This document shows, in pieces, positions 3,028-33,828 of a stretch of DNA of 64,000 nt. The DNA comes from Nitzschia sp. pyKryTriq1 (taxonomy: Eukaryota; Bacillariophyta; Bacillariophyceae; Bacillariales; Bacillariaceae), in the NCBI GenBank assembly GCA_956465555.1, contig OY101126.1, forward strand, positions 228,501 to 292,500. The letters are read 5' to 3'. The notes below the pieces were generated by a model. It did no database searches. It saw nothing but the letters and a program-made list of their open reading frames with translations, and was not told the origin of the DNA. Made by a program: the position numbers and the translations under genes. Position 1 is the stretch's first letter. The number at the start of each line of letters is the position of its first letter.

Positions 3028-5979
3028 ATGATTTCATCATCATCATCAACATCAACATCATCTCCTGCTGATGCCAATCCTCGACGACGGAGCGTCGTTT
3101 TTGTGGCAGTAGCTTGGCTCCTCTGTGGGTCGACGATATTCCAACCATCGACTGCCTTTGCTCCACAACAGCAACAACGAGCGATCACCAATTATTACTT
3201 GTCCAGGAGCACTCGACGGCAAACAAGTAGTCTCTATGTGGCTACCGAACCAAGAATATTTCACACGGGCAGTGAGGATGGCGACGATCCAGGCGATGAA
3301 GCTCAACAGCAGCAACAACGAAATCAAGTTCTTCTCGAACGACTCTTCAAGGAATCTCCGGAAGATGAGGATAACGAGCCCCCGTCGGAAGGCGACACCA
3401 ATAAGAGACGGCTGCAATTACACTCGGATGGAAAGCTGCGGCTGGGGCAAGAGGGTCTAGTGATTCTCGATGGACTCTCGCCTTTGACTTGGACGGGGAT
3501 CCAACCATCGGCGGTCGACGACTACTCAGTGGATCCTACTGCCACCTCCATGTTTTTGAAAGCCACGCATTCCAAAGAACGGTCGGAACATGAACTCACT
3601 CTAGGGTCCTTGGTATCGTGCCATCGGCTCATGGCCTGTGCCCGCGTGAATCGGTACTGGATGGGTCCCAAGTTTGGAACCTCGGCCAAGGATATTCCCC
3701 TGGATACTCAATTCCTCCTAGTCGAACTGGCAGAGAATGGACCGTACGCGTTGATTTTGCCTTTGGTCGATTCTGGCTTTCGTGCCACACTTCAATCCTC
3801 TGACACCACCAGCGGTAGTACTAAGAACAGTAATACCTGGAAGAAAAAGAAGAGCAACTTGGAAGTCGTTTGCTTTTCCGAAAGTGGTGACAAGTCCGTT
3901 TCGACGGCTGGCATGTTGGCACTTCACGTGTCAGTGGGCGATGATCCATACGCTCTCTTGAAACAAGGATTTCGACAAGTCGCCGATGGTACAGGGACCT
4001 TCCAGACGTTGGATCGGAAACTGCTTCCACCCAGTGTGGACGATTTTGGATGGTGTACTTGGGATGTCTTTTATTCCAAGGTGACACCGGAAGGAATCCT
4101 CCAAGGAGTCAAAGCTCTCAAGGATGCGGGAGTACCACCCCGAAATCTCATTTTGGATGACGGATGGCAAGAAGTCGGTCCATATCCCAAGGACTGGTTG
4201 AATAAGAATCAGCAAGCTGACGACTCTACAATGTCTTCCTCGTGGCTTTCCAAGGTTACCGGCCCGATTGTCGACTTGGTGACCAGAAAGGCTACCAACT
4301 ACTATTCTTCCAAAGTCCAACGTGCCGCGTATGGTACGATTCACAACCGAATCTGGACCACCTTGGCCAAGACTGTCTTGAAACAGGGCCTATGGGACTA
4401 TTTCGATTCCGAAACTGACTTTGCCCGACAACTCAATGGGTTTGAACCCAATTTCAAGTTTGACAAGCAAAAGACTGATGAAGATCATGCCAATGGCGAG
4501 GTCTCATCGCTGAAGGAAATGGTCACCAAGCTCAAGACCGAGTTGGATGTCAAGCATGTGTACTGCTGGCATGCACTTCATGGGTACTGGAGAGGCGTCA
4601 GCACCGAGTTGGGAAACCAGATTGGTATTGACGTCACGCAAGTGTACCCCAAGGCAAGCAAACACTTGCTGCAAGTGGACCCACTGGCCGAGTATGATCC
4701 TCCCAGTCTATTCGGTGTCGGTATGATCACCAAGGAAGACGATCTCCGAAAGTTCTACGAGCATCTGCATGCCCCCTTGGTGGCAGCCGGTGTCGATGGA
4801 GTCAAGGTCGACGTCCAATCGGGAGTCACCGCCGCCGGAAGTGGTGTGGGAGGTGGCCCTCACATTGCACGGCTGTACACTCAAGCCATGGAGGAATCCG
4901 TCTCCAAGAATTTCGCCTCCAAGGAAAATGGTGCCATCAATACCATCAATTGCATGTGCCACTCGACCGAAAACTTGTACCGGTACCAAGTCACATCAGT
5001 AGCGCGAGCTTCCGAAGACTTTTTCCCCCACCGCCCTGAATCTCATTCGGTCCATTTGGTCAATGTGGCCTACAACTCACTCTTTCTGGGAGAGATTTGT
5101 CTTCCCGATTGGGACATGTTTCATTCGAAGCATGCCTCTGCGGAACTGCACGCGGCCGCTCGCTCCATCGGTGGCTGCCCGCTCTACGTCTCGGACGTCC
5201 CGGGGCAACACGATACAAATCTGCTCAAAAAGCTCGTTTTGCCCGATGGAAGCATTTTGCGAGCCCAATTGCCAGGTCGGCCGACGCGAGACTGTTTGTT
5301 TGCAGACGTTGGGCAAGATGGATCCTCTGCACTTAAGATTTGGAACCAGAACAAGGCCGGTACCGGTGTTGTCGGCGCTTTTCACGTGCAGGGAGTGGCA
5401 TGGAATTTCGAAACGAACGAAAATGAAGTCCTTGTGGAATCGCCGGCGCCCATTACCGCCTTCGTCAAACCCTTTGACGTCGAAACACTTCGGGGACATG
5501 AAGGAGCCTTTGCTGTGTGGGAACACAAGTCACGATCTCTGCAGATTCTGGACAATGGTGATGAACAAATCGCAATTGCTCTGGCTCACCGTGATTGGGA
5601 CATTTTCACCATCGCACCCATTCAAACTACCGAGTCTGTTCAATGGGCCCCCATTGGGCTCGGGGACATGCTAAATTCAGGGGGAGCCTTGGAAATGGCC
5701 GGCTCATTGGAGCAAACCTTGGTCAAAGAGCCATCGAACGGAACCTGGCGCCAATCGACCACGGTTGACATTACAACTCGAGGTCCCGGACGCTTTGTTT
5801 CTTACTGTCAGCCAGGACCCTCCTCGATTATGATCAACGACGGCCGAGATAGCATTTCCTCCCATGTTATTTTTTCCCACGATCCCGGAACAGGATTGTT
5901 GAACTTTGCTCTGCCGAACGAGGCCGCAGACAAGCAACCTCATCGACTCACTGTCGTCTGGGACGAAATTCCCACCTAA
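3028..5979 (+). CDS. Plastid-targeted GH36 raffinose synthase/alpha-galactosidase-like enzyme
   Basis: The frame is open from 2458, but the ATG at 3028 is the likely start because it is followed by a signal peptide (hydrophobic VVFVAVAWLLCGSTIF) and then P-S-T-A-F-A-P, the diatom A-F plastid-import motif. The mature enzyme has about 940 residues and looks like the raffinose synthase/alkaline alpha-galactosidase branch of GH36. It has F-G-W-C-T-W-D-V-F-Y, the motif L-I-L-D-D-G-W-Q, the nucleophile motif K-V-D-V-Q (Asp595 counted from 3028), N-C-M-C-H-S, and R-A-S-E-D-F-F-P with the putative acid/base Asp664. Family knowledge predicts hydrolysis or transfer of alpha-galactosyl groups, but the substrate cannot be read from sequence. 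A plastid location for this family is unusual. No intron is needed. The next gene on the right is convergent. Confidence 0.9.
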   Translation: MISSSSSTSTSSPADANPRRRSVVFVAVAWLLCGSTIFQPSTAFAPQQQQRAITNYYLSRSTRRQTSSLYVATEPRIFHTGSEDGDDPGDEAQQQQQRNQVLLERLFKESPEDEDNEPPSEGDTNKRRLQLHSDGKLRLGQEGLVILDGLSPLTWTGIQPSAVDDYSVDPTATSMFLKATHSKERSEHELTLGSLVSCHRLMACARVNRYWMGPKFGTSAKDIPLDTQFLLVELAENGPYALILPLVDSGFRATLQSSDTTSGSTKNSNTWKKKKSNLEVVCFSESGDKSVSTAGMLALHVSVGDDPYALLKQGFRQVADGTGTFQTLDRKLLPPSVDDFGWCTWDVFYSKVTPEGILQGVKALKDAGVPPRNLILDDGWQEVGPYPKDWLNKNQQADDSTMSSSWLSKVTGPIVDLVTRKATNYYSSKVQRAAYGTIHNRIWTTLAKTVLKQGLWDYFDSETDFARQLNGFEPNFKFDKQKTDEDHANGEVSSLKEMVTKLKTELDVKHVYCWHALHGYWRGVSTELGNQIGIDVTQVYPKASKHLLQVDPLAEYDPPSLFGVGMITKEDDLRKFYEHLHAPLVAAGVDGVKVDVQSGVTAAGSGVGGGPHIARLYTQAMEESVSKNFASKENGAINTINCMCHSTENLYRYQVTSVARASEDFFPHRPESHSVHLVNVAYNSLFLGEICLPDWDMFHSKHASAELHAAARSIGGCPLYVSDVPGQHDTNLLKKLVLPDGSILRAQLPGRPTRDCLFADVGQDGSSALKIWNQNKAGTGVVGAFHVQGVAWNFETNENEVLVESPAPITAFVKPFDVETLRGHEGAFAVWEHKSRSLQILDNGDEQIAIALAHRDWDIFTIAPIQTTESVQWAPIGLGDMLNSGGALEMAGSLEQTLVKEPSNGTWRQSTTVDITTRGPGRFVSYCQPGPSSIMINDGRDSISSHVIFSHDPGTGLLNFALPNEAADKQPHRLTVVWDEIPT

Positions 5980-6290
5980 AGATGTAGGATGATGATGCTG
6001 ATCCTCCCCGATCACGCTAACACGGCTGTTCTTCCTCTCCACCAGCCAAACCCTTTTTGGACATAATATATTATGAGTGATGGCAACGCGACGCCATGAA
6101 CAACAATTCGCACGCATAACAAAGTGCAATCCACAGTGCAATCAATCATCACACGGCTACCAAGAAATATAAGCCACCACAAAAACATGTAAAATAATCC
6201 GGTGGTATTTCTCGACTTTGAAAACATGACTCCTATACTATATCATACTGCTTTAAGATATACTATACCGTAGTTCATACTGTAGTTCTA
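5980..6290. other. Intergenic between convergent genes
   Basis: This is the shared 3' flank of the GH36 gene and the gene on the minus strand. It is AT-rich towards 6240-6290. I see no RNA gene or repeat in it. Confidence 0.5.
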
Positions 6291-7523
6291 TTAGCACTGT
6301 TTAAAGGATTCTCGATCTTTTTGTCCTTTTTGTTGTTGTCGCATATTTTTTATTCGCAACGAAGCAAAATCCAAAGTGTAGGATCCAAAGAATAAAATAT
6401 ACGACGCGACGGCAATGTACTGTGCCATGCCAGCGATGTTGAAATTCCGCTTATTGTCGAGATTGGCCGTCCTTGCTGGATGGAGAGCCTCGGCAATTGG
6501 CCAGCACAGCAGCGAAGTGGCAACACACAATAGCTTCAGTCGGACACTCCAGATTCCATAGCAACAAGAAGACAAAGGTATCGTGGAAGAAGGTGCGGTC
6601 GCTGGATTTGGATCTGGATGTCTACGAATGCCCTTGCTATTGTCAGCTGATTGTCTTTTTTGAGGAGTTGTCTTTAATGTTGTCCACCACTTCGAGGCGA
6701 TAATGTAGTACGCGGTACTGTAGCAATGAAGGGCTGCACCGGCAAAAAAGATTCCCGCCAATTGCTGATGCAGAATCGATTGTCGGGAAATCCCGAGTCC
6801 CATTTTCAGATGCACCAAAATGTCTTCTTCCAACGTTACCAATCCTTGACCGATGACCCCTATGGCTGCCAAGTACCCTCCCCAAACCATTGCCATGACA
6901 GTCCAAGAAGAAGCACCACCACTCGTCGTCAACTCGGAATGAAAGGCGTGTCTCCATTGTTCAATGGCACCCAATAATATCACTCCCGTCAAGCTAAACC
7001 CAACTTGATACGCAAAATGTTCGGGAGGATTGCATCCCAAAAAGGAAATTGGTGGGGTCACTGTTCGGCTGGGCAGATGACCCGCTTTCCAAGTCAAAAC
7101 GTACACCACCAAAATCGTGGAAATACCCACAAAGCTTCCTAGGATAGGAAGAAGTAATTCCAACGTAGATCCAGGTCGAACGATCATCTTGTGGTGCAAT
7201 GGATGGATGGTCGGAACTACCTTTCCGGTCACACCGGTAATAATACTTGTATCATCGCAATGGAACAAAAAGATATTTTTTAGCATGTGTTCTTTTTGGT
7301 GATGGTGCCGCACTTTTTTGTGTGACTGCGGAATAGTTCGATCCGAGAGGTTTCTCGTCCGACGGGTTTCCAAATTTTCAGGATTCCACATTCCATCGTG
7401 TTTCCACTTGGAAGTTGCGCGCTCACGACTCCGAATAATGAATGGAGGAAGCTTCTCGAACGTTCCACAAGAACAAAAACTTCGATCCACCATCGCACCA
7501 ATGGCGGTTTTTGCAATCATCAT
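6291..7523 (-). CDS. Frag1/DRAM/Sfk1-type multi-pass membrane protein
   Basis: The frame has 410 residues. The core from about residue 120 to 390 holds roughly six hydrophobic segments. The region G-S-F-V-G-I-S-T-I-L-V-V-Y-V-L, the motif C-N-P-P-E-H-F-A-Y-Q and the following Q-V-G-F-S-L-T-G-V-I-L-L resemble the Frag1/DRAM/Sfk1 (PGAP2-like) family, which includes GPI-anchor remodelling and lysosomal membrane proteins. Assignment is by motif memory and is moderate. The first about 90 residues are basic and without domain. The first 25 or so codons are antisense to a degraded duplicate of the 5' end of the neighbouring oxidoreductase gene (see repeat), so the true start may lie downstream, for instance at the Met before LKNIFLF. 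It is head-to-head with the FAD gene and the two may share a promoter. Confidence 0.75.
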   Translation of the reverse strand: MMIAKTAIGAMVDRSFCSCGTFEKLPPFIIRSRERATSKWKHDGMWNPENLETRRTRNLSDRTIPQSHKKVRHHHQKEHMLKNIFLFHCDDTSIITGVTGKVVPTIHPLHHKMIVRPGSTLELLLPILGSFVGISTILVVYVLTWKAGHLPSRTVTPPISFLGCNPPEHFAYQVGFSLTGVILLGAIEQWRHAFHSELTTSGGASSWTVMAMVWGGYLAAIGVIGQGLVTLEEDILVHLKMGLGISRQSILHQQLAGIFFAGAALHCYSTAYYIIASKWWTTLKTTPQKRQSADNSKGIRRHPDPNPATAPSSTIPLSSCCYGIWSVRLKLLCVATSLLCWPIAEALHPARTANLDNKRNFNIAGMAQYIAVASYILFFGSYTLDFASLRIKNMRQQQKGQKDRESFKQC

Positions 7524-21556: not shown

Positions 21557-22400
21557 TTACCCGTTGGATGCGAAATGACGAGGAGTCTGAATAACAGAGA
21601 CTCCTCGGATTGATAACAACGGGTGCGAAGGCAGGGACACGAAGCCCATCAATATATGGTGCTGCAATGAAACGAGAAGGAGGAAATCATAAGCACGGCT
21701 TGGAAAGAAGATCTTCCTTGTTCCAGAAAAATGAGCTTGCGAACTCGCGGCTTCCAACCGATATGTTTATCATCATGCGTCAAAAACAAGAACTGCAGCA
21801 ATTTCTTCAACTGATGTCTCCGCTCGTCATCTATCCTCTAGTGATGCCATCCCTCTCTCTCTTGATTGGAATCGAACCATCTCTCAGCATGATTTTGATA
21901 TGAGAACCGAACGGGAAGACGATCTTTCTTTTTCCAGAGACATCCATCATATGCGAATGCGCCTCTTTCGATAGGATATGAGAACCGAACCGGAAGAACA
22001 AGATCTTTGCAACATGCGAGCACAACTCTTTCAGTATCACTATATAAATGGTGCTGCACTGAAACGAGAAGGAGGAAAACGTAACCATAAGCACGGCTTG
22101 GAAAGAAGATCTTCCTTGTTCTAGAAAAATGAGCTTGCGAACTCGCGGCTTCCAACCGATATATCATCATGCGTCAAAAACAAGGACTGCAGCAATTTCT
22201 TCAACTGATATCTCCGCTCGTCATCCATCCTAGTGATGCCATCCCTCTCTCTCTTGATTGCCTCTTTCGATAGGATATGAGAACCGAACCGGAAGAACAA
22301 GATCTTTGCAACATGCGAGCACAACTCTTTCGATAAACTCATCGAAAAGTTCTCATAAAATCTGACTGATTCACTCAACGTAATTCGATTCATAGAAAAA
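21557..22400. repeat. Non-coding duplicated segment
   Basis: 21659-21770 and 22051-22165 match closely (GGTGCTGCA-TGAAACGAGAA, later CTTGGAAAGAAGATCTTCCT). A second motif, GATATGAGAACCGAAC-GGAAG, occurs near 21896, 21975 and 22275. The pattern is a partial tandem duplication of about 390 bp. Open frames here are short, differ between the copies, and carry no domain. Confidence 0.7.
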
Positions 22401-22618
22401 CAACAACAGCAACAACAACAAAGGTAAGCAGCGATGGCGACTGTTTTGTGCTATTCTTTATTTGGAGAGTTGTTGTACGACCACCAACTGATGCCACCAC
22501 CGGATATAAAACACTTCAATTCCGCATGCTCTGGTGTTGGCGTGTGCTTCGTTCAGTTCGCATCACCCGACGACCTAACATTTGTGGCTGCCCTTGCGTC
22601 AGGTTTCGACGACACATT

Positions 22619-24220
22619 ATGAAACTTATTCTCAATGCCAAAAGCGTTCTGCTCGTCTTCGTGGCGAGCTCCTTGGTGCTTGGGAAGGCAGAACCCGTTC
22701 CTGTCGCCACCGTTCTTGCCGCCACCGACGCCACCGACGCCACCGACGCCTACGCCTACGCCTACGCTTCCGCCAGTGGCAGTGGCAGTGGCAGTGGCAG
22801 TGGCAGTGGCAGTGGCAATGGCAGTGGCAGTGGCAGTGGCGGTGGCGGTGACCCTCCCGACCTTGGAGACTTGTTCATTCTCTATCGCAACGCAACTGGC
22901 GTTCCCATTCTCGATGAAAACGGTTGCGTGCAGCCTATTGCGACGGACGCGGATGCGTGCAGTGATGCCTGCAAAAGTACAACGGGATCGGCAAATGATG
23001 TACAGGTAATCAAACTCGAGAACATTTGCGCGGTCCCATCCGCATGCATTGCATGCACACAGGAGGTGGAATTTGGCCGCACAAACGTGGCCCGCTCACC
23101 TCACAAGGTGTTCGAGTCCCAGCTGAATGATGCCATTGACACTCTTAACACCACCGATTGTACAGTCTTTCAAGACCCCGCGGGCCGTTTAGTTGCCGGA
23201 ACAACCATTGACTCTCCACTCCAGAATCTGGCCATCTACGAGGATCTCATGCGTAACAGACTCCCAGATGTTCTAAAAAGTGTTCTAAATGTTGAAGAAA
23301 TCGGTGAAGAGAAGCAGGACTTGCTGGCACTGGACTTGGCTGCCATGGCTCTTGGTACAGCCTCCGACAAGGGTGGCTCGGTCAATATCGACATGCTTGT
23401 GTATCTCAACCAAATCTTGGGACTGGTTAAGAATTCGAGCCTACTTGACACTATCTGTATTAATGTCACGGAAGAGGTGTCCGGCAAAGCAGCGAATGTC
23501 GAAAAGTGCTTCCTTGACTACGCCAGCTTCGGATATAATCGCAGTGGCAAGTTTTCGGGCCTGCCCTCCAATCCATCATATCTCCCTCCTGGATATTTCG
23601 AGTATCTCGCCCCTGCACAGTCGAACCTACCATTGTTTGAAATCACACAAGGACCCATTTTCAACATCGCTTTCGAGGATGTTCATTACAGCAACACGAA
23701 TGCCGTTGCATTTGCTCAAGCCGCAGATGATACTCGTGCCGTCATCAACTACATGCACAGCTGGCCGGTGCCGGCCGACTATGCCACCGAGATACCTTGC
23801 GACGACGGTGAATCAACGTTGTCGCAATTTTCTCTCTTGCTGGAGGTGCCCAGTTCTATCGAATCTGGAGCAAAATACGAAATTATCGTGACCCTGACCA
23901 ATCCCGGACCCTCTGTGATGTTAGACGTTTCCATCACAGTGGATATTGATAGTGTGGAAAGTTCGGGCGTTACAGTCATTGATTTTCCGTGGACCACCGA
24001 TATCGACCATCTTGACATTGGGTCCCATTCGTTCACCAAAGCATTCTCCGCTACCCTGCTACCTGACAACCTAATTGGTTCGATCATTTGGAGAGCAAAA
24101 GTGCACCCAAAGGGTAATTCCAACTTTGACCTTGCTGAACAACAGAAGACTACAGAGGTTACTAAGAATGCCAAGCTCACCAAAAAGGGAGGCAGAGGCA
24201 GGAAGCACCTTCGCACTTAG
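22619..24220 (+). CDS. Secreted Gly/Ser-repeat protein with Ig-like C-terminal region
   Basis: The frame is open from 22448, but ATG at 22619 is preferred because it starts a signal peptide (M-K-L-I-L-N-A-K-S-V-L-L-V-F-V-A-S-S-L-V). That gives 533 residues. A short tandem A-T-D/A-Y run is followed by a Ser-Gly repeat of about 25 residues. Next comes a Cys-containing region (C-V-Q-P, C-S-D-A-C, C-A-V-P-S-A-C-I-A-C-T) and a long unrecognised middle. Near residues 400-500 the pattern S-I-E-S-G-A-K-Y-E-I-I-V-T-L-T-N-P-G-P-S, then L-D-V-S-I-T-V-D-I, resembles a CARDB/DUF11-type beta-sandwich; this is moderate inference. The C-terminus is basic. Probably extracellular or cell-wall associated. Confidence 0.8.
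   Translation: MKLILNAKSVLLVFVASSLVLGKAEPVPVATVLAATDATDATDAYAYAYASASGSGSGSGSGSGSGNGSGSGSGGGGDPPDLGDLFILYRNATGVPILDENGCVQPIATDADACSDACKSTTGSANDVQVIKLENICAVPSACIACTQEVEFGRTNVARSPHKVFESQLNDAIDTLNTTDCTVFQDPAGRLVAGTTIDSPLQNLAIYEDLMRNRLPDVLKSVLNVEEIGEEKQDLLALDLAAMALGTASDKGGSVNIDMLVYLNQILGLVKNSSLLDTICINVTEEVSGKAANVEKCFLDYASFGYNRSGKFSGLPSNPSYLPPGYFEYLAPAQSNLPLFEITQGPIFNIAFEDVHYSNTNAVAFAQAADDTRAVINYMHSWPVPADYATEIPCDDGESTLSQFSLLLEVPSSIESGAKYEIIVTLTNPGPSVMLDVSITVDIDSVESSGVTVIDFPWTTDIDHLDIGSHSFTKAFSATLLPDNLIGSIIWRAKVHPKGNSNFDLAEQQKTTEVTKNAKLTKKGGRGRKHLRT
22774..22850 (+). repeat. AGTGGC hexamer microsatellite
   Basis: About twelve copies of AGTGGC with rare changes encode the Ser-Gly run. Just upstream, GCCACCGAC and GCCTAC units repeat three times each. 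Confidence 0.9.
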
Positions 24221-25381: not shown

Positions 25382-28300
25382 ATGTTCCGTCCCGTACGAC
25401 CCGCCGTAATCAATCTCTCCTACTCGGAAGAGGCACGTAAAGCATCCAACAAGGAGTCTCACAACACCCTTCGTACCAACCATGGCTCCTTTCCCACCTT
25501 CCGCCACTCGAATGACGATCTCCTGGCCGCCGCCGTTGCTGCTACTGCTGCAGCTCAAGCCGATGAGAACTTGATTCCTACTCTGGAGAACCCCACGCCT
25601 CTTCCCGGAGACTGCAATGTCAAAGAGTATATTTTGGAGCATGTCAGGGCCTACGATGGCGGCGCTTCCTTTCTAAAAGGACCTACCGATCGGACGTTGA
25701 AATCGTGGCAACGCTGTGAGGAACTCATGGAACTGGAATTGAAAAAGGGAGGCATTCTGGATGTCGACACTACCACCGCCTCGACTATTACCAGCCATGC
25801 ACCGGGTTATGTCTTGAGTCGCGAAGAAGATGTCATTGTCGGTCTACAAACCGATGAACCACTCAAACGCTCGTGCAAGCCTCGTGGAGGATTCGGTGTG
25901 GTCAAGAGTGCCTTGGAAAGCTACGGATATCATGCAGATGAACAAATGAAGAAAACGTATACCGAGGTACGACTACAATACTATCGAACTACGCGAATTC
26001 TGTTTTGCATTTGCATTTTCATCATCATCACGTGACTCACCTGTTATATGATTTTTTATTATTTCCTTCCTTCCTTCCTTTTCTTCCTTTTCTTTCGTTT
26101 TTCACAGGATGTGACAACTCACAATGACATGGTCTTTAGCATGTACACCAAAGAGATGAGGGCAGCCCGGCACGCCCACTTGTTGACCGGCCTACCTGAT
26201 GCTTATGGCAGAGGACGTCTCGTGGCCGATTATCGCCGCTTGGCATTGTATGGAGTGGATGAGCTGGTCCGACGCAAAAAGTTGGACTATGATGCCATCA
26301 CAGGCGCCAGTGATGAGAGTCTACTACTCCGATCCGAAATCACCAAACAAGTCAAAGCCTTCAAACAACTATTGATTATGGGTGATAGTTATGGTGTCGA
26401 CCTACGCAAGCCGGCCAAGACGTTTCGAGAGGCAGCCCAAGTCATGTGGCTCGGACATACGGCAGCGCTCAAGGAACAAGATGGTGCTGCCATGTCGGTG
26501 GGACGTTGGGATGGATTCTTGGATATCTATGCCGAACAAGATCTTGCCGAAGGTCGAGCCACGGAAGAAGAATTGCAAGAAGTGATTGACGATCTTGTCA
26601 TCAAGATGAGATTGGTCCGACACTTGAGACCACCAGCCTACAACGCACTGTTTTCGGGGGATCCCACTTGGCTTACCCTCGCTCTGGGTGGTATGACGGA
26701 AGACGGAAAGAGTTTGGTCACCAAGACCACCTTCCGTTTCCTGCACACCTTGACCAACCTTGGACCTGCCCCCGAACCGAATCTTACCGTTCTCTGGGCT
26801 CAAAATCTGCCCAACAAGTTCAAGGAGTACTGTGCTCAACAATCGATTGAGTCTTCTTCGATTCAATACGAGAATGATGATTTGATGCGACCCGTCTTTG
26901 GGTGTGATTATGCCATTGCCTGCTGCGTCTCGGGTATGCGTGTCGGCGTGGACATGCAATTCTTTGGCGCCCGTACCAACATGGTCAAGCTATTGTTGAT
27001 GTGCTTGAATGGCGGCCGAGACGAACTCCATGGCGAAAAGCTTTGCCCACGCCTCGAAGAAGAGTGTGCCAAGTTGGGCATCGGAGCCGGGGATGAACAA
27101 CGTCCTCTCAACTATGAGGATGTGGAACGTCTCTATTTTGAGATTGCCATTCCTTGGATGGCCAAGCTCTATGCCGAGACGATGAATTGCATTCACTACG
27201 CTCACGATCGTGCCTGCTACGAGAATATTCAAATGGCACTGCACAATAGCAACGTCAGTCGTCTCATGGCGTTTGGATTTGCAGGTCTCAGTGTGGTCGC
27301 CGATTCGTTGGCGGCGTTGAAGTACGATGAAGTCTACCCGATCCGAAGCGAAAATGGTTTGACTACAGGATTCCGTCGTGCCCATCCCAACCGAGAGATC
27401 CCACAGTTCGGAAACGACGACGACCGAGTGGATTCGATCGCCGTCAAAGCCGTCTCTCGCTTCCATGAAGAACTTGACAAGCAACCGCTTTACCGCAAGG
27501 CCAAGGCGACTCTTTCCGTCTTGACTATCACTTCCAACCTGGTCTATGGACAAGCCACAGGCGCTACGCCGGATGGACGTGTCTATGGAGACTCGTTTGC
27601 CCCTGGAGCCAACCCCATGCACGGACGCGACAAGAACGGAGCCCTCGCGTCTCTGTCCTCGGTTGCCAAGCTCCCGTACTACAAGTGTATGGATGGAATC
27701 AGTAACACCTTCTGTCTCCTACCCAATGCCCTTGGACAAAAGTCCAACCGTCGTGCCAACTTGGCGACTTTGTTGGACGGGTACTTTGCTCACAAGGCAC
27801 ATCACTTGAATGTCAATGTCTTGAGTCCTGACATTCTCAAGGATGCCCACAAACACCCTGAAAAGTACCCAAATTTGACCATTCGAGTCTCTGGATACGC
27901 GGTACGATTCAATCGTTTGACCCCCGAACAACGAGAAGAGGTCATGGCTCGTACCATGCATTCGACCAGTGTCGTCACCATGGCGCACAAGGAAACCAAC
28001 GCTGTCTACTCGGGCGATGTGGACGAAGAAAAGAAGGAAGAAGTCCACCCTGAAGAAATGGAAGGAGTCAAGGAAGGTGGTGCGGTGCTCGGATCCGTCT
28101 ACTCGGTCGAAACCTTTTCTACTACCGATGGACCGGGAATTCGTACCAACATTTTCTTGCAAGGCTGCCCCAAGAAATGCCGTAAGTACAGTAACGTGTG
28201 ATTGACATTTATTTCGAATGAATGAATCTTGAGGCCCCTTTGCAATAGTTTGTTCAGTCTCTCACCAACGCGTCCCTCTTCTTCCACCATGCGAACAGTG

Positions 28301-28972
28301 TTCTGTTGCAATCCTGAAACCCAAGCCTTGGCGGATCCATTGCAACATCCAGAGTTCGCCATGTCTTCGGCGGAAATCGCTTCGCTCCTGCTCAAATACA
28401 AGGAGTGGCTCAAGCCCAGAGGCGGTGGTGTCACTGTATCGGGTGGCGAGGCGCTCGTCCAACCCGACTTTGTGGCTGACTTGTTCCAACGAGTCCGTGC
28501 TGCCGGCTTGACGACGTGCTTGGACACTGCCTGCTTTGGAAACAAGCGACGCTGGGACAAAGTCTTGCCCTACACGGACAATGTCCTCTTGTGTTTGAAA
28601 GGCATGGATAACGAGGTCGCTGGAAAGGTCGCCCAAGTATCGGCTGCCGAGATGGCCAAGTCCAAAGAGTTTGCTCGCTACATTCGCGATGCCTACCCCA
28701 ACATTCGCATCACACTCCGTTGGGTCTTGCTCAAGGGCATGACGGATGCTGATAGTGAATTAGAGGCCTTGATTGCCTTTGCAAAGGATTTGGGCCAAGT
28801 CTTCCATGCGGTCGAACTCATTCCTTACCACGAGTTGGGACGCGAAAAGTATGACATGCTCAGCCTCGAGTATCCCTTGGATGACATGTGCGCCTATCGC
28901 TCCGAGGATGCCCTCCAAGTGCAAAGTCGACTGGAAGATGCAGGAGTTGCAACCATTCTCAGCATTGTCTAG
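25382..28972 (+). CDS. Pyruvate formate-lyase fused to its activating enzyme
   Basis: Exons 25382-25966, 26108-28181 and 28299-28972 join to 1110 residues; introns are 141 and 117 nt (GTACGA...CACAG; GTAAGT...ACAG). Residues 1-about 815 are pyruvate formate-lyase, which splits pyruvate plus CoA into formate and acetyl-CoA. It has [13 protein letters not shown], the catalytic pair Cys467-Cys468 in A-I-A-C-C-V-S, and the glycyl-radical site R-V-S-G-Y-A-V-R-F (Gly791). After an acidic linker (D-E-E-K-K-E-E) comes an activase domain from about residue 855: [12 protein letters not shown], then Cys882, Cys886 and Cys889 (C-P-K-K-C-L-F-C), the CxxxCxxC cluster ligands of radical SAM enzymes. The second intron falls inside this motif: splicing joins C-P-K-K-C to L-F-C-C-N-P-E-T. 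No convincing plastid presequence is seen. Confidence 0.9.
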
Positions 28973-29940: not shown

Positions 29941-32358
29941 CTAAATAAGCTCCTCGCCCTTGGGCAAGTAGACAATACGCTCGTTGACAGACTGACAATC
30001 CGATCCTGAATCCGAATTGGGAAAAGGCTCAGAGAAGAGACCAGGGCAAGTCCCGCTCACTTTAACATTCTCCTCTTCAATGTTGCCAGAGAGAACAGCA
30101 TTGATACTGGATCCTCCTTCCTCGAACATGTATCCCACACCTCCTTGAATGGCGGCCCCGTTCTCGGCAAAGTAGGAATCGGTGACGCGTAGTCGGAGGT
30201 AGTCACCCAAATTCCTCAAGTAAAAGCCAGCACCGCGACCAGCCCCGTTGGAGGTGAAGCTATTGCGGAATAGCGAGACGCTGTAAAGCCCCACCGAAGA
30301 GGGAATCGTGGTGTACACGCGGAGTCCGCCACCTTGATTCCCGCAACGATTGGAATCAAAATAGCTTTCCTCGATACTGACGTTGGGTGTGTTTCGAATA
30401 GAGACTCCTGCTCCATTCTCCGCCTTGCCCAGTTCGAAACGGCTGTTGGTAATCCATACACTGCTGGCGCCTTGGACGTGCAAGTTGCCACCATTGTCTG
30501 CCCTGCCGTTGATAAAGGCGCAATTGGACACATGGAAGTAGGACGAGTCGGAAACGCGGCTGGGTGTAGCTACCAACACATTACCACCGTCACCGTCCAC
30601 GACGGATCCACCTTCAAAGGTCAAACCTCGCAACGTCACATTGGCCGCTCTCACAATGAGACTCCGTCCCTCTTCTCCGCCAGTTTGTAGGCCGCACCGA
30701 GAAGTGCTACTAGTATCATCCGCACAACACACTGTGACACCTGATTGAGCAATGGTAACTGTTCCTTCCAAGTAAATGGTTCCACAAATGGCCACGGTAT
30801 CCCCAGGAGCCAGAGTCTCGAGGATCCGAAAGAGTATTCCATGGTTGTCCGCGCAAAATCCACTGGATGGTTGACACGAAGAGTTATCATCTGGCGGACT
30901 GGCGACCGGTGGTCTTGTAAAGGGTGGGCTGGTGAAGGGTGGTCTTGTAGAAGCAGAAGCCAGTGTTGGGATGGGTGCAGCTACCGGAGGAGACATAGTT
31001 GGAGGGATACTGAATGGTGCTCGTGTTGAGGAGGAAGTCGGTGCTGCAATGGGCGCGGCCTCCGAAGGAGCCATGGTGGGTGGGAGCTCCTCGCCTGCGG
31101 GCAAGTAGACAATACGCTCGTTGACGGACTGGCAATCCGATCCTGAATTCGAGTTGGGAAAGGGCTCAGAGAAGAGACCAGGGCAAGTCCCACGCACGTT
31201 AACATTCTCCTCTTCAATGTTGCCAGAGAGAACAGCATTGATACTGGATCCTCCTTCCTCGAACATATATCCCACACCTCCTTTTACGGCCGCGCCGTTC
31301 TCGGCAAAGTAGGAATCGGTGACGCGTAGTCGGAGGTAGTCACCCAGATTCCTCAAGTAAAAGCCAGCACCGCGACCAGCCCCGTTGGAGGTGAAGCTAT
31401 TGCGGAATAGCGAGACGCTGTAAAGCCCCACCGAAGAGGGAATCGTGGTGTACACGCGGAGTCCGCCACCTTGATTCCCGCAACGATTGGAATCAAAATA
31501 GCTTTCCTCGATACTGACGTTGGGTGTGTTTCGAATAGAGACTCCTGCTCCATTCTCCGCCTTGCCCAGTTCGAAACGGCTGTTGGTAATCCATACACTG
31601 CTGGCGCCTTGGACGTGCAAGTTGCCACCATTGTCTGCCCTGCCGTTGATAAAGGCGCAATTGGACACATGGAAGTAGGACGAGTCGGAAACGCGGCTGG
31701 GTGTAGCTACCAACACATTACCACCGTCACCGTCCACGACGGATCCACCTTCAAAGGTCAAACCTCGCAACGTCACATTGGCCGCTCTCACAATGAGATT
31801 TCTCCAGTTGCCACTGCTCTGTAAAATACAACGCGAGGCTTCTGCTCCGTTGTCCTGGTCACCACAACAAATTGTGACACCGGACTGGGTCAAAACGAGG
31901 GTATCCTCCATAACAATCATGGTTCCACCACCGCCACCACCGCAAATGGCCAACGTTTCACCGGGTTGTTGAAGTTCACTGTTGAAACGTACAAGTTCTT
32001 CAAAAGTACTAGCACAAAGCCCATTGCTCGGTTCACAAGAAGAGGTGGCTCTGGATGGAACAGCCAGATATTGTTGTTTCGCTTCGACAAGAGAAGAAGC
32101 AGAATCATGATAGTCATTCTCATCGATAGCAACGAAAGGATCCTTTCGGTCGTCGGCAATCAAGAGGTTGACGAGACCGCCCACAACCAGTGAGAGGATC
32201 ACAAACAGGCTAATAAAAACAAGAGCCAAGGTGGCTCTACGTGCATGGTTCGGATGGGAAGGTGGGGCATCTTCACGTGCCTGCTGTTCTTCGTCTTTGG
32301 TAGCAGTAGTTGCACCGTTATCCTTGGTTGCACGTGTTGGTGATGGTGATGCAACCAT
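29941..32358 (-). CDS. Membrane-anchored beta-helix protein with internal duplication
   Basis: The frame is 805 residues. Residues 1-42 are cytoplasmic and polar, and 43-66 are a transmembrane helix (L-A-L-V-F-I-S-L-F-V-I-L-S-L-V-V-G-G), so it is a type II protein. Two extracellular domains follow, residues about 90-424 and 485-804. Both begin with a C-x-P-S-x-G-x-C-A motif and a T-[LV]-A-I-C-G segment, and both contain regular G-x-x-I/V-x-N-[SC]-x-F steps (V-S-N-C-A-F, I-T-N-S-R-F, I-E-E-S-Y-F, V-T-D-S-Y-F), typical of a right-handed parallel beta-helix (pectin-lyase-like). A Pro/Thr/Ser linker joins them. No catalytic residues can be assigned. Residues 187-424 and 566-803 are almost the same sequence. 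A surface role is inferred. Confidence 0.87.
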   Translation of the reverse strand: MVASPSPTRATKDNGATTATKDEEQQAREDAPPSHPNHARRATLALVFISLFVILSLVVGGLVNLLIADDRKDPFVAIDENDYHDSASSLVEAKQQYLAVPSRATSSCEPSNGLCASTFEELVRFNSELQQPGETLAICGGGGGGTMIVMEDTLVLTQSGVTICCGDQDNGAEASRCILQSSGNWRNLIVRAANVTLRGLTFEGGSVVDGDGGNVLVATPSRVSDSSYFHVSNCAFINGRADNGGNLHVQGASSVWITNSRFELGKAENGAGVSIRNTPNVSIEESYFDSNRCGNQGGGLRVYTTIPSSVGLYSVSLFRNSFTSNGAGRGAGFYLRNLGDYLRLRVTDSYFAENGAAVKGGVGYMFEEGGSSINAVLSGNIEEENVNVRGTCPGLFSEPFPNSNSGSDCQSVNERIVYLPAGEELPPTMAPSEAAPIAAPTSSSTRAPFSIPPTMSPPVAAPIPTLASASTRPPFTSPPFTRPPVASPPDDNSSCQPSSGFCADNHGILFRILETLAPGDTVAICGTIYLEGTVTIAQSGVTVCCADDTSSTSRCGLQTGGEEGRSLIVRAANVTLRGLTFEGGSVVDGDGGNVLVATPSRVSDSSYFHVSNCAFINGRADNGGNLHVQGASSVWITNSRFELGKAENGAGVSIRNTPNVSIEESYFDSNRCGNQGGGLRVYTTIPSSVGLYSVSLFRNSFTSNGAGRGAGFYLRNLGDYLRLRVTDSYFAENGAAIQGGVGYMFEEGGSSINAVLSGNIEEENVKVSGTCPGLFSEPFPNSDSGSDCQSVNERIVYLPKGEELI
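29948..31798. repeat. 714-bp internal duplication, offset 1137 bp
   Basis: 29948-30661 and 31085-31798 align without a gap. By eye I count about 18 mismatches, all within the first about 270 bp (29948-30217), and none in the remaining about 440 bp. A patch of identity next to a diverged patch fits gene conversion. Confidence 0.88.
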
Positions 32359-33828
32359 GTTGATGATATCACTTCGAGAGTAGCTTTGTTGTTGGTGAGG
32401 ACTTGCCTTTGCTTTCTCTTTCCTACGAGATGATGTTAGTCGCAGCTACTAGCTCGTACCAATGATCCTCTCGGGTGCTTTTTTGTGGGTCTCGGTATCT
32501 CAAAAGCAATAAGCTGATGCTCTTTGGATTCTCATCTCAATCTTGGATTTTATGGCACCATGGCGCACGCGCATAGCATACCCGGTACCGCGCGGCGAAC
32601 GGACAAAGATTTGGCGGGAAAGCAGTACGCGGCTTCCGGTCAGTCCAGTCAATTGAGTCGAAAATACAACTACTGTACATACATATAGCATTAGCACAGA
32701 TGATGTGTACCCGCACAGGGCTGGCCCCGGGCGCGCGCCCCACACCCCCGCGCATTACGGCAGCTTCGGGCATGTCGCAGATAATAACGGTTTTTCTGTC
32801 AATATCACGTCCGACGCGCGTGCGCATGTAAAAATGTCTAATCGCCGCTACACTGTCAGATTGATGTCACACCTATAAATTCGTTGAAATCTCCAAATTT
32901 TCACCCTCTAGTAAACCGACCTCGCCCAATGAAACGATTACAATAAAGTAAACGTACGCATTGAAATTGTCAGAGTAGTAGAAAGAAATGAGGTGGTCGA
33001 CAAACCACATCAACGAAAACGGAGATTCAGACGAATCTCACGTAGACCCTGGTACACTTTCTACGTAGATCGTAGAACTGAAAATACAAAGATCTCGTCG
33101 ACCGACATCTTACAAGCAACCCAAAAGCAAATAGTTTAAAGCTCACAATATTAGAAAGCAATCGATTAGCAACCTAGTTTTGCTTTATTAAGGAGGTTTC
33201 GGACGCAAGGAAGACCACGACGGGTACCGATCGTTCTCATTGCTGTTGTCTCTTGACGATGGCGAGAGCGATCGACTAGCTTATCGGCCCTTCGTCGATA
33301 TGATTGTCGTCTCGCCTACTCAAATTTTTTTCCCCCCAACCACCATCCCTGGGGCTATTACTATATTGGCCTTAGGGACTAGCTTAGTCCTAATGCCCTC
33401 TAGTCGTCTCTGCGCGCTTGCGAAGCGCACAACCACACATTCCTACCGACTGTACGGCGGTAGACCCCCATTACGTACTGGCTTGCTTACTGGCCGAGGC
33501 GTACCCATAGCTTGGGAATCTTAGATTCTCCTTTCTTTTTCTTCCTTTTTCCCTTATAAAATTTTAGCTAACTACGCGACATCAGTGTTATTTATTTCGT
33601 GTCGGTTCGATGACGTCGTTCTTTCTTCTTTCCATCCGCCGGCCCATGTCATCGCATGCTCCGCGTGTTCGCATGAGTGGTGGAAAAGAAAGGAGTGTGG
33701 AGAGCGAGAAGGCAGAAACATCCCATAAACGCAAGTCGTGGCATCATCAGCTCTCTTAGTAGTTCCCGACATTATTACTCTCTTGTTCTACTTCGTACAT
33801 CATACTCTATTTCATACCAGTACGTACC
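32359..33828. other. Intergenic
   Basis: About 1.5 kb between divergent genes. 32560-32830 is GC-rich with CGCGCG words. 33350-33470 contains GGGACTAGCTTAGTCC and CGCGCTTGCGAAGCGC palindromes. No gene, RNA or mobile element is supported. Confidence 0.5.

Follow-up and report, generated by a model that had tools for sequence, protein, structure and literature searches.

Results

The window, i.e., the whole 64,000-nucleotide stretch of Nitzschia sp. pyKryTriq1 DNA that we analyzed, carries on its forward strand, at positions 25382 to 28972, a gene of three exons with a spliced coding sequence of 3333 nt, which translates into 1110 amino acids plus a stop codon. The introns and splice joins of this gene model are based on homology and on the reading frame. 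The features of the locus are as follows:

25382..25966, + strand: exon 1, residues 1-195; an N-terminal extension of ~75 residues, then the start of the pyruvate formate-lyase (PFL) domain
25967..26107, + strand: intron 1, 141 nt, GT..AG
26108..28181, + strand: exon 2, residues 196-886 and the first base of codon 887
26921..26926, + strand: codons of the predicted PFL catalytic pair Cys467-Cys468
27893..27895, + strand: codon of the predicted radical glycine, Gly791 (RVSGY)
27959..28090, + strand: linker, residues 813-856
28166..28180, + strand: codons Cys882 to Cys886, with the first two cysteines of CxxxCxxC
28182..28298, + strand: intron 2, 117 nt, GTAAGT..CAG
28299..28972, + strand: exon 3, from within codon 887 through residue 1110 and the stop; remainder of the radical-SAM activase, with Cys889
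28592..28594, + strand: codon of Cys985, at the position of E. coli Asp129 (mature numbering)

Exon 2 holds the PFL core, the glycyl-radical domain, the linker and the start of the activase with its first two cluster cysteines, so that intron 2 splits the CxxxCxxC motif: exon 2 encodes Cys882 and Cys886, and exon 3 encodes Cys889. The match to E. coli PflA continues across this join. Pfam matches above cut-off were obtained for PFL-like (residues 88-676), Gly_radical (692-797), Radical_SAM (877-1038) and Fer4_12 (869-960). With these domains in one frame and no stop between them, our analysis upholds the initial annotation in its central claim of a complete glycyl-radical enzyme and activase in one polypeptide, and in its coordinates, its residues Cys467-Cys468 and Gly791, and the two GT..AG introns whose removal gives the 3333-nt coding sequence. 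The flanking open frames at 22370-24220 (+ strand, 616 codons) and 29941-32445 (- strand, 834 codons) have no Pfam match, and visual inspection of the latter suggests two long repeats that are almost identical.

A sequence search of the PDB with the protein identified E. coli PFL (1h16; E=1.2e-228) as a match to residues 76-812, and the start of this alignment at residue 76 bounds the N-terminal extension. The pair Cys467-Cys468 and Gly791 align with the cysteine pair and the RVSGY glycine of the E. coli enzyme, and 234 of the 274 columns that are invariant in 85 bacterial and viral PFLs are retained, with differences at 40. Among the 12 NCBIfam families listed for this domain, TIGR01255 gives the best score (next, 231.9 bits), at 940.5 bits against an equivalog cut-off of 994.2. 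The cysteine pair and RVSGY class the domain as a type-1, PflB-like PFL, which is predicted to produce formate and acetyl-CoA.

The C-terminal 276 residues matched E. coli PFL-activating enzyme (PFL-AE; 3c8f, E=2e-42), with residues 855-1102 aligned to residues 2-240 of 245, i.e., the activase is full-length, and Cys882/Cys886/Cys889 form the CxxxCxxC that had been read there from the DNA. This motif and the full-length match to PflA identify the domain as a PFL-activating enzyme, predicted to install a glycyl radical. Of the 19 NCBIfam families listed for it, TIGR02493 scores best, at 198.4 bits against an equivalog cut-off of 231.75. We read both sub-cut-off NCBIfam scores as divergence from the bacterial models, although they still count as failed tests. 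We also compared the activase with 41 non-redundant sequences drawn from 100 bacterial PFL-AEs (80 loci and 20 stretches), a set skewed because the diatom and E. coli sequences supplied the scan patterns and because only the best 80 of 530 relatives were retained. Of 44 columns with conservation of 95% or more in this set, the diatom activase retains 35, and the retained positions include the three cluster cysteines, DGPG, GGE, and E. coli Asp104, Lys131, Arg166 and His202 (mature numbering). The nine changes are H7Y, G13S, H37C, D40E, W42Q, G107C, D129C, W164T and L199I, three of which introduce cysteine. We take Asp129 of E. coli PFL-AE to be a ligand of a monovalent cation near SAM, in a site that includes Asp104; in the diatom, Asp104 is retained as Asp962 and Asp129 is replaced by Cys985, in a column with 39 Asp and 2 Ser among the 41 bacterial sequences.

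The changed positions, both here and in the PFL domain, could alter activity. A stronger reading of them is that the activase domain is degenerate, with the fusion inactive, inefficiently activated, or reliant on a different radical SAM enzyme. The nine changes at near-invariant positions, with D129C at the presumed cation ligand, and the sub-cut-off activase score would fit such a loss; we nonetheless consider it quite unlikely, as the three cluster cysteines, Asp104, Arg166, His202 and GGE are all retained, the gene runs for 1110 codons with no stop or frameshift, and our search of the genome (below) found no other PFL-AE.

The joint between PFL and activase lies wholly within exon 2 and contains no stop codon, and the forward open frame that carries it, at 721 codons, is of a length that none of 1000 mononucleotide shuffles of 25382-28972 reached. 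The fusion is thus independent of intron 2. The initial annotation had made disuse of the 28181/28299 splice join a ground for rejecting the fusion, which does not hold, since failure to splice there would truncate the activase while leaving its link to PFL in place. The linker that it had described as short and acidic is both, with 11 acidic and 4 basic residues in 44, and a gap of this length would leave scant space for a eukaryotic terminator and promoter. Our gene model comes from the DNA of one strain alone, and an assembly or gene-model artefact that joins two adjacent genes could be suspected on that ground. With the joint inside one exon and one frame, however, such an error would have to delete a stop codon and yet keep the frame, and the 44-codon stop-free gap is short for separate eukaryotic genes; we regard an artefact as most improbable.

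The same region contains two methionines from which a free activase might also, or mainly, be made on a shorter transcript and act catalytically in trans. Translation starting at Met820 or Met846 would produce the whole activase in a protein of 32.1 or 29.2 kDa, respectively; Met820, just past the PFL fold, is embedded in ACCATGG, and a G occupies position +4 at Met846. The ACCATGG is, however, also dictated by the codons for Thr-Met-Ala, and with no stop in the full-length frame any long transcript would still yield the fusion, so that we consider this route to a free activase unlikely. For the fused protein, a structure model of exon 2 only, computed from an alignment with 13 PFLs of bacterial and viral origin, lacking most of the activase and silent on docking, has a mean pLDDT of 74, with values under 50 beginning at exon residue 619 (protein residue 814). 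The low values are weakly consistent with a flexible tether, this being a region with no homologues in the alignment and next to a shortened activase.

We searched the remainder of the assembly (40.65 Mb in 20 contigs, with 8 silicon-transporter matches above cut-off that mark the host as a diatom) for other copies of either enzyme. The fusion gene was the only PFL match, and no second glycyl-radical domain was found at E values up to 0.1, i.e., no separate GrcA-type spare part was seen at this threshold. The only other PFL-AE match was weak (29.4 bits) and led to a MoaA-type protein. These searches were run exon by exon with the best candidates scored, a procedure that a heavily split second activase could escape, and a second PFL or PFL-AE is likely to be absent. 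If no other PFL-AE exists, activation has to come from the tethered activase of the fusion itself, either in cis or between chains.

We also surveyed other genes of anaerobic metabolism. None of the frames seen reaches the length of a bifunctional AdhE, although an intron-split AdhE could escape such a search; iron-dependent alcohol dehydrogenase matches occur in frames of 519, 475 and 379 aa, and formate/nitrite transporter matches at four places, one of them in two pieces. At C7:1804500-1812500 (L131), a single frame (4568-6961) contains flavodoxin, FAD-binding and NAD-binding matches together with the last of the matches to pyruvate:ferredoxin oxidoreductase (PFO), and probably encodes a pyruvate:NADP+ oxidoreductase; each of the six PFO pieces scores below the family cut-off. 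At C12:345500-349500 (L132), one frame on the - strand (2-2572) contains iron hydrogenase, flavodoxin and FAD-binding matches; this locus shares a contig with the PFL gene, at a distance of ~90 kb. The PFL-AE fusion would be accompanied in this diatom genome by two other fused anaerobic enzymes.

Our survey of bacterial and viral DNA gave no example of a PFL-AE fusion in the sample covered. A motif script, which odd members could escape, found the PFL and activase motifs in one frame in none of 102 bacterial and viral loci, and both motifs on one strand in 75 of them. With the PFL query, 22 loci in viral contigs included none that was fused by the same script; with the activase query, 7 stretches in viral contigs matched the pattern and none encoded a relative. 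Among 398 genomes of the phylum to which a Ruminococcus genome belongs, PFLA matches reach E<=1e-40 in 203 and exceed the cut-off in 110, and the longest frame among the matches listed is 556 aa; of 244 genomes of the phylum that includes a Gastranaerophilales genome, 71 contain a match at E<=1e-50, the longest frame with a match being 316 aa. A fusion would require a frame of about 1000 aa, and none of that length is present among the matches listed, which come from 274 of the 642 genomes.

Three of the longer bacterial frames were examined as candidate PFL fusions and rejected. The 507-aa frame at L128 continues into CRP/FNR-like sequence, with Pfam matches to a cNMP-binding domain and a Crp-type HTH, and the 556-aa frame at L129 has a CRP/FNR-like continuation judged by eye, i.e., in both (L129 by eye) a radical-SAM, PFL-AE-like activase is joined to a transcription regulator. 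The third, of 411 aa, adjoins a PFL that is in a different frame. At four further loci (L021, L029, L046 and L073), frames of 75-95 codons with RVSGY are located directly upstream of the activase frame, and these are perhaps GrcA-type spare glycyl-radical proteins.

The order of the two bacterial genes was a further point of the initial annotation, which had equated the domain order with that of pflB-pflA, and our count agrees: of 80 bacterial PFL-AE loci, 67 have a pflB that a script located upstream of the activase gene and on its strand. In these 67 loci the distance from the pflB stop to the DGPG codon is 113-376 nt (median 249), and its diatom equivalent, from residue 815, is 162 nt. It is a reasonable inference that the fusion arose in operon order, e.g., after transfer of the linked pair.

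Discussion

We propose that this gene probably encodes a self-activating enzyme in one polypeptide, i.e., a type-1 PFL to which its radical-SAM activase is attached by a flexible, acidic tether of ~44 residues. From what is known of the family, both for the radical chemistry and for the PFL dimer, the activase domain would bind a [4Fe-4S] cluster and SAM and generate a 5'-deoxyadenosyl radical, which would abstract a hydrogen from Gly791 of its own chain or of the partner chain in the dimer; the tether looks long enough for either. The radical would then pass from Gly791 to Cys468/Cys467, where pyruvate and CoA would be converted to formate and acetyl-CoA. With such a tether the activase would never be far from its substrate, an arrangement that may be advantageous to a cell exposed to brief spells of anoxia. 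Concerning location, a signal peptide is expected of diatom plastid proteins, and the most hydrophobic 19-residue stretch within the first 60 residues has a mean hydropathy of 0.49, so a plastid-type signal peptide is not evident; the mitochondrion or the cytosol seems more likely than the plastid.

In E. coli PFL, oxygen cleaves the chain at the radical glycine. As Gly791 is located between the two enzymes, oxygen cleavage at this position would detach an intact activase from the dead PFL, with computed pieces of ~320 residues (35.5 kDa) for the activase and 87.9 kDa for PFL. That the fusion is a self-releasing activase of this kind, triggered by oxygen, is a doubtful proposal, drawn from the E. 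coli chemistry and the gene order. If true, it would turn a tethered 1:1 activator into a soluble one that acts on other chains once anoxia returns, and it could cover part of the repair role of GrcA in a genome where we found no separate part of that type.

Glycyl-radical enzymes and their activases have generally been studied as separate proteins, and the transient complex that they form is hard to trap. A PFL and PFL-AE in one chain, as we propose here, would offer a tethered complex for structural work and would allow a direct test of cis versus trans activation, in a system in which the substrate, normally in excess of the activase, is present at a 1:1 ratio to it. A natural fusion could therefore help to reveal how the radical enzyme PFL is activated.

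The fusion may be new to the literature. Among the papers compared, a set that does not include the main survey of eukaryotes (Stairs 2011), a PFL-AE fusion is not stated in the available portions of PMC3660698, PMC9255765, PMC10407231, PMC7990286, PMC5715807, PMC11736642, PMC6732389, PMC12924338, PMC8003979, PMC11574389, PMC5608401 and PMC10703272. In the portion of PMC8003979 available to us, Table 4 lists PFLA as present in Thalassiosira pseudonana with no fusion mark, while some other fusions are marked; this entry neither shows nor excludes a fusion in that species.

Comparison with known systems places the two halves of the protein close to their E. coli counterparts. The PFL domain shares the cysteine pair and RVSGY with E. 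coli PFL (PflB, 1h16; TIGR01255), at 52% identity in the alignment; the E. coli enzyme stands alone, whereas the diatom PFL is extended N-terminally, continues C-terminally into the activase and scores below the family cut-off. Similarly, the activase shares CxxxCxxC, DGPG, GGE and PYHELG with E. coli PflA (3c8f; TIGR02493), at 38% identity, but PflA is a separate protein, and the diatom activase is tethered 1:1, carries H37C, G107C, D129C and W164T, and is also below cut-off. With the bacterial pflB-pflA operon the fusion shares gene order and a similar gap, although none of the 102 loci examined shows the two motifs in a single frame. In Chlamydomonas, according to the portion of PMC6732389 available to us, expression of the activase is much lower than that of PFL, an excess of PFL that the 1:1 diatom fusion would not reproduce unless the cell makes some free activase as well. 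Finally, pyruvate:NADP+ oxidoreductase, a fusion of PFO with a reductase as described in the available portions of PMC6732389 and PMC5608401, is likewise an anaerobic pyruvate enzyme with a fused partner; that protein is an electron-transfer fusion, whereas the diatom PFL-AE joins an enzyme to its own modifying enzyme.
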